From the NCBI GenBank assembly GCA_016209155.1, contig JACQWU010000180.1, forward strand, positions 1 through 7,132: 7,132 bases of DNA, read 5' to 3'. The translations under genes were made by a program, and so were the position numbers. The notes beneath the pieces were generated by a model, which saw only the letters and a program-made list of their open reading frames with translations, searched no databases and was not told where the DNA came from. Origin of the DNA: Candidatus Desantisiibacteriota bacterium (lineage in GTDB: Bacteria; JACRDZ01). Shown here one piece after another: positions 3,319 through 7,132 of the stretch. Every line of letters starts with the position of its first letter. The first letter of the stretch is position 1.

Positions 3319-3612
3319 TCAATCTGCAGAATGAATAAATATCTTATTATCTCCTATTTCTCCAATATCGCTATTTTTGACTATTGTTTTTACTATGCGC
3401 TCCACTTCACTATCCTCAACTAGAAGCTCAACCATGATTTTAGGAACAATTCCTATTGTGAAGTTTTCATTACGATTTTTTTTCATAGTATATTTTTGCT
3501 TATCATTTCCTTTTTTCTTCTCAATCCCAGAACATAAGTATCCAAACTTTTTTAATGCACACCGTACCTTATCTGCTTTTTCAGGATGTATTATTGCTAC
3601 TATCTTTTTCAT
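3319..3612 (-). CDS. degenerate P-II (GlnB/GlnK-like) signal protein, tyrosine-less and C-terminally short
   Basis: The 97-residue product aligns without gaps to the canonical P-II at 4191-4529. It keeps MKK-I-x-AII-x-P at the N-terminus, Q39, K40, K58 and the G84/G87-D88/K90-IF core. It departs at key places: Phe replaces the uridylylated Tyr51, the GHGKQKG stretch that shapes the 2-oxoglutarate site becomes GNDKQKY (G37D, G41Y), Arg82 becomes Asp, Gly89 becomes Asn, and the protein stops at residue 97, so the RIR arginines (101/103) that contact ATP phosphates in P-II are missing. I infer it may not be uridylylated and may bind ATP/2-oxoglutarate poorly, perhaps modulating GlnK through mixed trimers or binding other partners. 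The start at 3612 is supported by AGAGG 7 nt upstream, whose 20-nt leader nearly matches that of glnK; an in-frame ATG at 3645 would add 11 unrelated residues. Its apparent sigma-54 promoter lies ~400 bp upstream beyond a repeat element. Confidence 0.85.
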   Translation of the reverse strand: MKKIVAIIHPEKADKVRCALKKFGYLCSGIEKKKGNDKQKYTMKKNRNENFTIGIVPKIMVELLVEDSEVERIVKTIVKNSDIGEIGDNKIFIHSAD

Positions 3613-3688
3613 TTTCAATCCTCTTTGTAAACTCGGTAATGTCAAAACTTAACCACAGACACTGAGAAAACCTTGAAAATTAATTATT

Positions 3689-3803: not shown

Positions 3804-3998
3804 ATCTCCTGTCTCTGATAGGAATTCTTTATTATTTATTTTTGTGCCAATTCATCCCTGCCTTAGAGTATTAATGGCACATCCAGATAAATGAATTTTT
3901 TTTGAGAACACTGAGAACTCATTATCTTTTCTCTCTAGTTCTCTGTGGTTCATTTTTTTATCCTTTTTTCATGTTACTTTTGACAGTACCATAGACTC

Positions 3999-4108
3999 TT
4001 AATACTATTAGCAATAATTATGCCAAATTAGAACTCCTGATTAAATGTTGATTTTAAAAGAAAAATATCAAATTATATGCTACACATGCTACATTTATGT
4101 ATTATTAT
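3999..4108 (-). repeat. promoter module, copy A (110 bp), upstream of the P-II-like gene
   Basis: This stretch aligns with 6200-6310 over its whole length with a single 1-nt indel. Three blocks are strongly conserved: the sigma-54 core with flanks (28 of 29 bases at 3999-4027), a middle block close to TTTTTCTTTAAAATCAA on the minus strand (around 4050-4068), and a distal block, ATAATAATACATAAATGT on the minus strand, around 4091-4108. The sequence between blocks has diverged. That is the pattern of preserved regulatory sites: a core promoter, a possible bending site and an activator site. Copy A also carries a private direct repeat, ATGCTACA, at 4077-4084 and 4086-4093. Confidence 0.8.
4010..4025 (-). 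promoter_or_regulatory. sigma-54 (-24/-12) promoter, copy A
   Basis: Read on the minus strand the site is TGGCATAATTATTGCT, matching the consensus TGGCAC-N5-TTGCW at every position except C to T at the sixth base, with correct GG-to-GC spacing. Transcription would start near 3999, heading toward the P-II-like gene at 3612, with the repeat element 3651-3950 in the leader. The site lies downstream of glnK, so it cannot serve glnK. Sigma-54 promoters need an AAA+ activator bound upstream; the shared distal block near 4091-4108 is the candidate site. Confidence 0.8.
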
Positions 4109-4190
4109 CTCCATATAGATAGACAAATCTCTTGACAACCCTATTTTTATGTGGTTAAGTTTGATTATTCAATTTTGATTTTACTATCTA

Positions 4191-4529
4191 TTAAATCGCA
4201 ATATCCCCTTCTTCACCTGTACGGATTCGGATGCAATTATCTATTGAGTAAACAAATATTTTGCCGTCACCTACTTCTCCTGTTCTTGCACTTTCAACGA
4301 TGGTTTTTACGATTTTTTTAACTTCATCATCTTTTGAAATAATTTCCAGTTTTATTTTTGGCAAAAACTCAACCTTATATTGTTCACCCCTCCATTGCTG
4401 TATCACACCTTTTTGTTTGCCGTGCCCTTCTATCTCTGTTATCATAATACCTGAATAACCTACTTTTTCTAATTCCTGCTTTACTACATCCAGATTTTCC
4501 GGACGTATTATTGCTTCAATTTTTTTCAT
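4191..4529 (-). CDS. glnK: P-II nitrogen regulatory protein, GlnK type
   Basis: P-II proteins are trimers that read ATP/ADP and 2-oxoglutarate, and the GlnK type binds and closes AmtB when ammonium is plentiful. This 112-residue protein has the usual length and every key residue: T-loop Tyr51 (RGEQYKVEFLPK), Q39, K40, G41 and K58 for 2-oxoglutarate, the B-loop ARTGEVGDGKIF (82-92), and the C-loop RIRTGEEG with R101 and R103. The intact tyrosine allows uridylylation where GlnD is present. The start at 4529 follows GGAGG at 7 nt spacing. The gene begins 26 bp after amtB on the same strand, the classic amtB-glnK pairing (order amtB first), so I use glnK rather than glnB, though sequence alone does not separate these. 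Transcription probably comes from the sigma-54 promoter at 6211-6226. Confidence 0.95.
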   Translation of the reverse strand: MKKIEAIIRPENLDVVKQELEKVGYSGIMITEIEGHGKQKGVIQQWRGEQYKVEFLPKIKLEIISKDDEVKKIVKTIVESARTGEVGDGKIFVYSIDNCIRIRTGEEGDIAI

Positions 4530-4555: not shown

Positions 4556-5875
4556 TTATTTCTTCTCTAAAAATGAATATCCCTGTTTACGATTTATAAA
4601 TTCAGGATATGCGGAATTTCCATGCTCTCCAATATCCAAACCTTCTATTTCTTCATGCAGGCTTACGCGTAACCCCATTACTTTTTTTAATATCTGCCAG
4701 GTAATATATGATGTTAAAAAAGTAAATATCCCGACACTAACAACTCCTGTCAATTGAGAAAATAGCAATTTAGTTCCACCTCCAAATAAAAGACCATTTC
4801 CCGTAGCTACACCGGCTATTTTATCCTGTGCAAATAAACCAACACATATTGTTCCAAAAATACCGTTTACAAGATGAACCGATGTTGCACCAACTGGGTC
4901 GTCTATTTTTAATTTATCAAACCAGATTACTGCAAAAACCACTATAATACCGGCTATAGTCCCAATTATAAAAGAACTTCCAATACTAACAAAAGCGCAA
5001 GGCGCTGTGATAGCAACTAATCCCGCTAAACATCCATTTAATGTCATTCCCAGATCAGGTTTGCCTAAATAAATCCATGAAAGTATTGTAGAACTCATTA
5101 TTGCTGCTGCAGCTGATGTATTAGTAGTAACGGCAATGTGGCTAATTGCATCAGGGATTAATGCCATGGTTGATCCGGGATTAAATCCAAACCATCCAAA
5201 CCAAAGTACAAATGTACCAATAGTTGCGATTGTCAAATTATGCCCTAATATTGGATTCATACTGCCGTCTTTATTATATTTACCAAATCGCGGACCAAGC
5301 ACAAGTATCCCTGAAAGAGCTGACCATCCTCCTACTGAATGTATCACAGTAGAACCGGAAAAATCAAACATCCCCTGTTGGGCAAGCCATCCGCCACCCC
5401 AGATCCAATGCCCGACTACCGGGTAAATAAACATTGTTATTACAAAGGAAAATACTATAAAAGTTTTATATTTAATTCTTTCTGCTACTGCTCCTGAAAC
5501 TATTGTTGCTGCTGTTCCGCAAAATACAAGCTGAAAGAAAAATTTTGCAAGAAGAGGAACACCTGTCCATGATAATGACGAATAAACACCTTTATATGCT
5601 TCCCCAATCGCAGGAGAATTATCTGCGCCGGTTAAAAAAAACAATCCTTTCAGCCCAATAAAAGAATTTCCATCCCCAAACATAAGTCCCCATCCGATAA
5701 ATAAAAATCCCAATGATGAAACAGCAAATACAACAAAATTCTTAGACAGAATATTCACACAGTTTTTAACCCTGGCAAAACCCGCTTCAACCATTGCAAA
5801 TCCTAAATTCATAAAAAACACAAGCATTGCTGTTATTAAAACCCATAAAGTATCTACTGCTATTTTTGCATCCAT
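4556..5875 (-). CDS. amtB: ammonium transporter AmtB
   Basis: AmtB is a trimeric inner-membrane channel for ammonium/ammonia. The 439-residue product is rich in hydrophobic segments that fit the 11 membrane helices of the family. Visible hallmarks are FFMNLGFAMVEAGFARVKN (20-38), SGAVAERIKYK (127-137), GHWIWGGGWL (155-164), the family signature DFSGSTVIHSVGG (171-183), the twin pore histidines H179 and H334 (SVHLVNGIFGT), and the gate phenylalanines F118 and F231 (GWFGFN). The cytoplasmic tail GLRVSLHEEIEGLDIGEHG (401-419) is the conserved region that responds to GlnK docking. No cleavable signal peptide is apparent, because the N-terminus enters directly into the first membrane helix. The ATG at 5875 follows a very strong AAGGAG. 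It sits between the small helix-turn-helix gene (75 bp upstream) and glnK (26 bp downstream), probably one operon. Confidence 0.97.
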   Translation of the reverse strand: MDAKIAVDTLWVLITAMLVFFMNLGFAMVEAGFARVKNCVNILSKNFVVFAVSSLGFLFIGWGLMFGDGNSFIGLKGLFFLTGADNSPAIGEAYKGVYSSLSWTGVPLLAKFFFQLVFCGTAATIVSGAVAERIKYKTFIVFSFVITMFIYPVVGHWIWGGGWLAQQGMFDFSGSTVIHSVGGWSALSGILVLGPRFGKYNKDGSMNPILGHNLTIATIGTFVLWFGWFGFNPGSTMALIPDAISHIAVTTNTSAAAAIMSSTILSWIYLGKPDLGMTLNGCLAGLVAITAPCAFVSIGSSFIIGTIAGIIVVFAVIWFDKLKIDDPVGATSVHLVNGIFGTICVGLFAQDKIAGVATGNGLLFGGGTKLLFSQLTGVVSVGIFTFLTSYITWQILKKVMGLRVSLHEEIEGLDIGEHGNSAYPEFINRKQGYSFLEKK

Positions 5876-5950
5876 TTTTATTTCTCCTTACTGTTATTCT
5901 TTTGTCTATTCAATTGAATAAAATTATTCAAAAAAAATATATTGTAACTT

Positions 5951-6130
5951 TTAGTTTATCTGCAATATCTTCTTAACTGTCTCGGCATATACTTTATTTA
6001 TACGATTTGTTTTAAACCATCTCTCTATGGTGGTAACCTGAATATCAAGTTGTTTTGATAAATCATGTAAGGTATACCCCCTTTCCTGCTTAAATTTTTT
6101 AATTTTCCCAATGAGTTCTTCATTAATCAT
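5951..6130 (-). CDS. 59-residue helix-turn-helix DNA-binding protein
   Basis: A small gene reads from ATG (6130) to TAA (5951-5953) and gives 59 residues. After a basic first helix (EELIGKIKKFKQERG) comes a XRE-like helix-turn-helix: YTLHDLSKQLDIQVTTIERW at residues 19-38, in which LHDLSKQL is the support helix, DIQ the turn and VTTIERWFK the recognition helix. A last helix, AETVKKIL (49-56), completes the minimal domain. The pattern resembles 'LT-x-x-LA-x-x-L-G-V-x-x-x-T-I-x-R-W', so the product is probably a one-domain transcription factor acting as a dimer. An in-frame TAA at 6167-6169 fixes ATG 6130 as the only usual start; its ribosome site is weak (AAAGAAAG). It lies ~70 nt below the sigma-54 start and 75 bp before amtB, so I infer it is the first gene of the amtB-glnK operon. 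The target is unknown; autoregulation or control of nif/amt genes is a guess. Confidence 0.75.
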   Translation of the reverse strand: MINEELIGKIKKFKQERGYTLHDLSKQLDIQVTTIERWFKTNRINKVYAETVKKILQIN

Positions 6131-6199
6131 TTGTTTAGCTTTCTTTAATATATTTTGGACACAGACTTATTCTTTATAATACGCTGATATTTGAATTCA

Positions 6200-6310
6200 T
6201 TAATATTATTAGCAATAATTATGCCAAAACATAACTTCTTATTGCTCCTTGATTTTTAAAGAAAAATTTCAGATTTGGGATTCATTCATATAACATTTAT
6301 GTATTATTAT
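6200..6310 (-). repeat. promoter module, copy B (111 bp), upstream of the helix-turn-helix/amtB/glnK genes
   Basis: This is the second copy of the module at 3999-4108, with the same three conserved blocks in the same order: the sigma-54 core at 6200-6228, the middle TTTTTCTTTA-type block near 6249-6268 and the distal ACATAAATGT-containing block near 6293-6310 (minus-strand reading). The distal block contains inverted arms ACAT and ATGT around AA, a plausible dimer site for a sigma-54 activator. I do not see the NifA pattern TGT-N10-ACA or a convincing NtrC site. The middle block contains AATCAA, half of the IHF consensus, but the downstream half is not matched. Confidence 0.8.
6211..6226 (-). 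promoter_or_regulatory. sigma-54 (-24/-12) promoter, copy B
   Basis: The minus strand reads TGGCATAATTATTGCT, identical to copy A and differing from TGGCAC-N5-TTGCW only at the sixth base. Transcription should begin near 6200 and run into the helix-turn-helix gene (start 6130), amtB and glnK. Nitrogen-regulated sigma-54 control is well established for glnK-amtB operons in other bacteria, which supports the call. The other bases between nifB and the helix-turn-helix gene (6311-6407) show no gene and no clear terminator. Confidence 0.82.
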
Positions 6311-6407
6311 TTTCATTTATGTTGCAGGATAAACTTTTAAGGGGTACATCAGGTGTATTGCAGCCCAAAATATATGAGATGTAGTAAAGAGCTAAAACCC
6401 ATAGGTG

Positions 6408-7132
6408 TTAAATTAAGAATATATGATGAGAAACAAGTTCATAATTTTCACGTATAGCTTCTTCTATCCGGTTATATGTCATATTCACGTAAAGACCATT
6501 TTCTTCCAGTATCCTGCGCGGTACATCGCCAATACGCATTACAAGGATAGCCTGACAATCGGATAGTTTTTCTTTGATTATTTTCATTCTTTCTTCCGGG
6601 TCTATACAATCTTCTTTCCCTGAACAATATTTGTTAATATCTCTTCTTTCAATGAATTTTATTTCAGAAGAAAAAACGTCATAAATAAGTAAATCTTTTG
6701 CATGTCCAAAATGCTGATCAACTATATATCCGTTTGAAGATGTCACTGCGAAACGAATAGCTTTCTCTTTTGCTTTTCCCGGGATTTCATCTTTTGAAAA
6801 GCAATTAGGAATCTCCTTAATTATACTTTTATCAATAAAAATAGTTGTTTCATCAGAGATAACCTTCCCCACAGCATCTGCTCTGCATTGCCGGCAATGC
6901 ATCATTTGAGGCAATATCTCGGACATTTTTTGACGTATATCCCTGAGTGTTATACGGCTTACCATCGGGAAATTTTGAAAATAAGTGCCCTGTGTAGGAA
7001 TAAAAGGCATAATATTTACCAATTCCGCTCCTTTTTGTTTTACAAAACGCACAATATTTTCTATCTCAAAATCATTAACCCCGGGGATATAAACAATATT
7101 TATTTTTAAATGTATATTTAATTGTTTAAGAA
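6408..7132 (-). CDS. nifB: nitrogenase cofactor biosynthesis protein NifB, C-terminal part with NifX-like domain, cut by the right edge
   Basis: NifB is the radical-SAM enzyme that makes the NifB-cofactor (8Fe-9S-C core) for nitrogenase. The frame stays open to the right edge: 240 residues are visible, and the GTG at 7052 is an internal valine codon, since IHLKINIVYIPGVND, typical of the NifB barrel, precedes it. The end of the radical-SAM domain is seen as NIMPFIPTQGTYF (visible residues 39-51) and HCRQCRADAVG (78-88), the C-x2-CRxDAxG motif characteristic of NifB. A NifX/NafY-type cofactor-binding domain follows (about 123-231), with FAVTSSNGYIVDQHFGHAKDL and YCSGKEDC. The CX3CX2C SAM cluster motif would lie outside the window. 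The gene is upstream of, and co-directional with, the helix-turn-helix/amtB/glnK genes, 277 bp away. It ends normally at TAA 6408-6410. The call is very strong because both domains match in the right order. Confidence 0.95.
   Translation of the reverse strand, partial: LKQLNIHLKINIVYIPGVNDFEIENIVRFVKQKGAELVNIMPFIPTQGTYFQNFPMVSRITLRDIRQKMSEILPQMMHCRQCRADAVGKVISDETTIFIDKSIIKEIPNCFSKDEIPGKAKEKAIRFAVTSSNGYIVDQHFGHAKDLLIYDVFSSEIKFIERRDINKYCSGKEDCIDPEERMKIIKEKLSDCQAILVMRIGDVPRRILEENGLYVNMTYNRIEEAIRENYELVSHHIFLI

Follow-up and report, generated by a model that had tools for sequence, protein, structure and literature searches.

Dedicated control of ammonium uptake is known from AmtR of Corynebacterium glutamicum, a TetR-type protein that controls a regulon of at least 35 genes, carries a large C-terminal domain and has a palindromic operator upstream of amtB (PMC2723105), and for which adenylylated GlnK has been proposed as the inducer (PMC7919409). 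The system that we propose here from sequence, in a stretch of 7,132 nt (the window, i.e. the whole of the DNA analysed), is similar in placing amt and glnK under dedicated DNA-binding control, but would employ a bare 59-residue Cro/CI-type domain and a different operator, the strict pattern of which occurs at amt only. The helix-turn-helix (HTH) protein is not itself an AmtR: it is 59 residues long, and neither Pfam nor NCBIfam gives a TetR match.

Nitrogen status is also conveyed through P-II proteins or glutamine synthetase to transcription factors by TnrA/GlnR with GlnK or glutamine synthetase in Bacillus, and by NtcA-PipX-P-II in cyanobacteria, where PipX is likewise very small. These factors are of the MerR and CRP types, with other operators, and to our knowledge are not encoded between glnK and amt; the present system further differs from them in that an interaction of the HTH protein with P-II is a candidate only. 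Sigma-54 and NtrC control glnK-amtB in Escherichia coli, and the window operon resembles this arrangement in possessing an upstream -24/-12 core (TGGCATAATTATTGCT, 6211-6226), but this promoter is not conserved in relatives, most of which have no sigma-54 core at the locus. Nor is the HTH protein a bacterial enhancer-binding protein.

The features of the window described here all lie on the minus strand. The terminal part of a nifB-like gene (6408-7130) is located upstream of the sigma-54 core, which is followed by the HTH gene (5951-6130), the conserved element proposed as its operator (5894-5937), a Shine-Dalgarno-like AAGGAG (5884-5889) just downstream of the element, the presumed target, an amtB-type ammonium transporter gene of the amt2 class (4556-5875; PF00909, 1.8e-119; TIGR00836, 1.1e-126), and glnK, encoding a P-II protein (4191-4529; PF00543, 3e-29). 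A second core, identical in sequence (4010-4025), lies upstream of a second, divergent P-II-like gene (3319-3645; PF00543, 2.9e-11) that follows the operon and whose product is altered in the T-loop and shortened at the C-terminus. The two promoter regions (4010-4130 and 6211-6330) are duplicates (78% identity over 121 bp in a comparison with 6131-6420) and have in common a ATAATACATAAATGT block, a possible enhancer site, that lies approximately 80-100 bp upstream of the core. Elsewhere in the window, 659-2380 encodes an NHL-repeat beta-propeller fused to a multihaem c-type cytochrome domain with several CXXCH motifs.

The helix-turn-helix gene and its genomic context

The complete 59-residue HTH gene proposed in a first-pass annotation of the window is borne out by its open reading frame (ATG to stop), by Pfam and by structure prediction. 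The product matches HTH_26 (Cro/C1-type) at 25.6 bits, above the cut-off of 22, and HTH_3 at 19.3 bits, below the cut-off of 23. The AlphaFold2 model (pLDDT 87.8) contains four helices (residues 3-17, 21-28, 32-41 and 46-56) and conforms to the four- to five-helix Cro/CI fold with helix 3 as the recognition helix. Its nearest solved folds are the DNA-binding Cro/CI proteins C.Esp1396I, SinR and HipB: the top rows of a Foldseek search were C.Esp1396I and SinR with TMq values of 0.66-0.79, but with E-values of 0.04 or worse, VIA gave Z values of up to 8.6, and a sequence search of the PDB returned weak matches only (homeodomain, SinR/HipB). As modelled, the protein is a DNA-binding domain alone, with no room for a sensor domain.

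The likeness to C.Esp1396I (and other restriction-modification controllers), HipB and SinR lies in the fold; these proteins are longer, share at most 24% identity with the HTH protein, and are accompanied by restriction genes, the HipA toxin and SinI, respectively. Assignment as a HipB-type antitoxin was rejected on the NCBIfam HipB score (14.9 bits against a cut-off of 79) and on the neighbours, which are amt or glnK in all 59 strong copies, with no toxin. A small regulator of phage or plasmid type was likewise rejected, no relatives having been found on viral contigs or on plasmids.

Scanning of 84,980 species genomes yielded 23 relatives of the HTH protein, in records that are all labelled Omnitrophota except for two unassigned bacterial ones. 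The homologues (57-72% identity, 58-59 residues) have a common frame and start, so that the frame conservation on which the first-pass proposal was to stand or fall is indeed found. Residues R43-I44-N45 and Y48-A49 are conserved. Strong copies (E <= 8e-23), separated by a clear gap from weaker relatives, are present in 47 of 384 sampled Omnitrophota genomes; Amt is encoded by 283 of the 384, and by 46 of the 47. Of three other genomes surveyed from the window's own small phylum, two also contain the gene, and the window's genome has a single copy. Outside both phyla it was found in one of approximately 382 sampled genomes (G758), which has the same amt/glnK context and is possibly also from Omnitrophota. 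Many of the genomes surveyed are fragmentary assemblies. Close pairs of HTH genes give dN/dS values of 0.03-0.11 (Nei-Gojobori), indicating strong purifying selection, and since the homologues retain both frame and length and dN/dS is low, the sequences argue for a real gene, far above chance. One interrupted strong copy was seen, that of L095 (genome G338), which is broken by a TGA codon.

Conserved linkage to amtB-glnK, named as a check on first reading of the window, is evident throughout: for each of the 59 strong copies from Omnitrophota and the window's phylum, amt or glnK lies no more than 750 nt away on the same strand, and the copies are not scattered at random as part of a mobile repeat. 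The next gene downstream is amt in 54 of the 59; glnK lies directly upstream in 46, with a gap of no more than 20 nt in 28 of these, and in the shortest cases the two genes abut or overlap by 1 nt. The commonest order is amt1-glnK1-HTH-amt2-glnK2, sometimes extended by amt3-glnK3. The HTH gene was originally described as heading its operon behind a sigma-54 promoter, which holds for the window but is the exception, as elsewhere the gene is generally third (amt1-glnK1-HTH) and no sigma-54 core was found in the HTH-amt gaps. The window's genome does encode rpoN; of the 53 HTH-bearing Omnitrophota genomes, many of them possibly incomplete, just 15 yielded it. Because the gaps contain no core and rpoN is this infrequent, sigma-54 is, on comparative grounds, outside the conserved HTH-amt system.

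The weaker relatives (29-62 bits) lie away from amt/glnK clusters, several of them approximately 0.4 kb upstream of tyrosine recombinases. Those at L098, L099, L101 and L102 encode 58-60 residues; at L098 another gene intervenes before the recombinase. These distant relatives are possibly excisionase-like regulators, and their position upstream of tyrosine recombinases suggests that the HTH family was recruited from regulators of mobile elements.

The element upstream of amt2

Gibbs sampling of the gaps between the HTH gene and amt2 recovered a motif of 19.6 bits, as against 8.1-8.3 bits in shuffled gaps. The element spans 30-40 bp and consists of a T-tract and, about 21 nt on from where the tract starts, yCAATTGnnTAAnCArwTGnnTAA; it is followed by the amt ribosome-binding site, the Shine-Dalgarno sequence of which it abuts in compact cases. 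Where a T-tract is present, the distance from its start to CAATTG is nearly fixed at 17-22 nt. CAATTG and the TTA and TAA on either side of it form a dyad, and a second CArwTG follows 12 bp further on, such that two sites overlap; this arrangement is comparable to that of C.Esp1396I, which according to the title of structure 3clc is a tetramer when bound to its natural operator. In the window, where motif discovery, control scoring and the strict pattern all identify the element, the T8 tract occupies 5930-5937, CAATTG 5911-5916 and the partner half-site 5899-5904, and the scored 20-mer (5903-5922) reaches 22.4 bits, the sole match of at least 13 bits in the whole window. The regions first suggested as binding targets (6131-6310 and 3952-4108) do not contain the element, and the likely target is instead 5894-5937. 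The element was also considered as a short protein-coding frame or the product of a frameshift, and this was discarded, as frames vary among loci and are interrupted by stops.

In leave-one-out scoring, 48 of 51 HTH-amt gaps reach at least 10 bits. The amt genes further along in these clusters, which were outside the training set, are positive in 13 of 13 cases (17.4-23.1 bits), whilst the element is found at none of 34 amt genes that precede the HTH gene, and at none of 43 amt genes in Omnitrophota that do not have the HTH gene, several of which are tandem amt pairs. It is also present at four unlinked amt genes in HTH-bearing genomes (L220, L221, L222 and L229); other unlinked amt genes are without it, some resembling the amt1 kind (L224-L227) and some not clearly so (L223, L228 and L230). 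Given the positive later and unlinked genes, together with the absence from amt1, shared descent of the neighbouring DNA offers no easy explanation. L229 lies in the window's own genome (contig C200); its amt gene is apparently broken into two frames and is accompanied by a sigma-54 core (TGGCATTGAAGTTGCA) and, next to this on the other strand, by a weaker copy of the element. No element was found within 400 nt of six of 53 first-downstream amt genes; in three of these six the gap is a mere 30-36 nt, and in one the element stands before the HTH gene instead.

Of 56 genomes with the HTH gene, 29 contain the pattern TTTTTN{9,18}CANTTGNNTAANCA, as against five of 56 without the gene. The strict pattern CANTTGNNTANNCANNTGNNTA is matched 27 times across 57 genomes (approximately 96 Mb), each time 14-240 nt upstream of amt, and its reversed control not once. 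Accordingly, the early suggestion that the HTH protein might control nif genes is unsupported. A wider regulon was considered and rejected, since with a looser pattern the matches away from amt in HTH genomes are roughly as scarce as matches of any kind in genomes that do not have the gene. In one Omnitrophota genome (G119), element-like sites (L215:409 and L215:2296) flank the glutamate dehydrogenase gene gdhA, for which a wider nitrogen regulon is possible.

Proposed regulation of amt2 and competing readings

With a bare DNA-binding domain encoded near amt, an element confined to amt, and co-occurrence of the two, we read the pair as regulator and operator on evidence that is comparative throughout. 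We consider it likely that the HTH protein binds the element, and probable that it is a minimal local regulator dedicated to ammonium uptake, most plausibly a repressor of amt2-type operons. Acting as one dimer or two, the protein would occupy the two overlapping half-site pairs, a geometry that we infer, directly upstream of amt2-type genes, whether these belong to the linked cluster or are located elsewhere in the genome. As the element is situated between the T-tract and the amt Shine-Dalgarno site, a block of transcription initiation, and hence repression of amt-glnK, would be the most likely consequence; judged from position alone, repression is the likelier sign of control. In the window, the sigma-54 promoter would drive the HTH gene together with amtB, generating a feedback loop.

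The nearly fixed 17-22 nt between T-tract and CAATTG, reminiscent of a promoter pair, would also suit a protein that binds the element but activates amt2, the T-tract and TAAnCA then being parts of an activator-dependent promoter, and such a reading is compatible with absence of the element where the HTH gene is missing. We regard activation as unlikely, however, as the element is very near the Shine-Dalgarno site, an unusual place for an activator to bind, and TAAnCA makes a poor -10 box.

Neighbourhood is no proof of binding, and the element could serve another regulator co-occurring with the HTH gene, the HTH protein being otherwise occupied, e.g. in autoregulation or as a GlnK adaptor; a nitrogen-specific regulator of this kind would equally be expected to have strict sites solely before amt. 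Such an arrangement appears improbable when set against the contrast between HTH-less genomes, in which none of 43 amt genes has the element, and HTH genomes, in which some unlinked amt genes do. The top residue-base covariation, between recognition-helix residue 35 and element position 16, also argues against it, although this signal is uncorrected for descent and only suggestive.

Position just upstream of the ribosome-binding site, in an orientation to amt conserved in nearly all cases, might alternatively indicate that the element works in the mRNA leader, on the translation of amt, and is not an operator in the DNA. Folding of four stretches read on the correct strand, with L068 left out, revealed no significant structure (z -1.4 to +1.7), Rfam contained no family at the gathering threshold, and the overlapping dyads, the distances to amt of 150-240 nt at some loci and the opposite strand in L229 better fit DNA, making this a decidedly remote prospect. 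That the gene is a chance frame or the decaying remnant of a mobile-element regulator, as the small distant relatives near Omnitrophota recombinases might hint, can be dismissed in view of its fixed linkage, strong purifying selection and lack of phage or plasmid relatives; a mobile-element regulator is thus refuted as the full explanation, but plausible as the origin of the family.

Returning to repression by the HTH protein, sensing would have to come from a partner or from the expression level. A P-II protein reporting nitrogen status would be the likely means of setting activity, because the HTH protein has no sensor domain and its gene mostly directly follows glnK; as glnK abuts the HTH gene, P-II is the first candidate partner, as proposed for AmtR (PMC7919409). 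Adjacency to glnK may, however, reflect co-expression rather than interaction, and we advance control by GlnK only tentatively. A fuller circuit, in which GlnK engages the 59-residue Cro/CI domain directly and so gates both Amt and, via the CAATTGnnTAAnCA operator, amt-glnK transcription, largely without sigma-54/NtrC, is more doubtful still.

Implications for nitrogen control in Omnitrophota

In the open-access literature searched we found neither the HTH family, nor the operator, nor a placement between glnK and amt, and no account of nitrogen control in Omnitrophota, which is apparently undescribed. The family and operator are thus new, whilst the fold and the logic of a dedicated amt regulator are known. 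For a large uncultured phylum, the locus supplies a concrete candidate for the regulator of ammonium uptake and for its operator, both small enough for synthesis and direct testing, and few candidate partners of P-II proteins are smaller than the HTH protein. More broadly, it illustrates that a gene below the usual size cut-offs, and easily missed by annotation, can be a conserved regulator.
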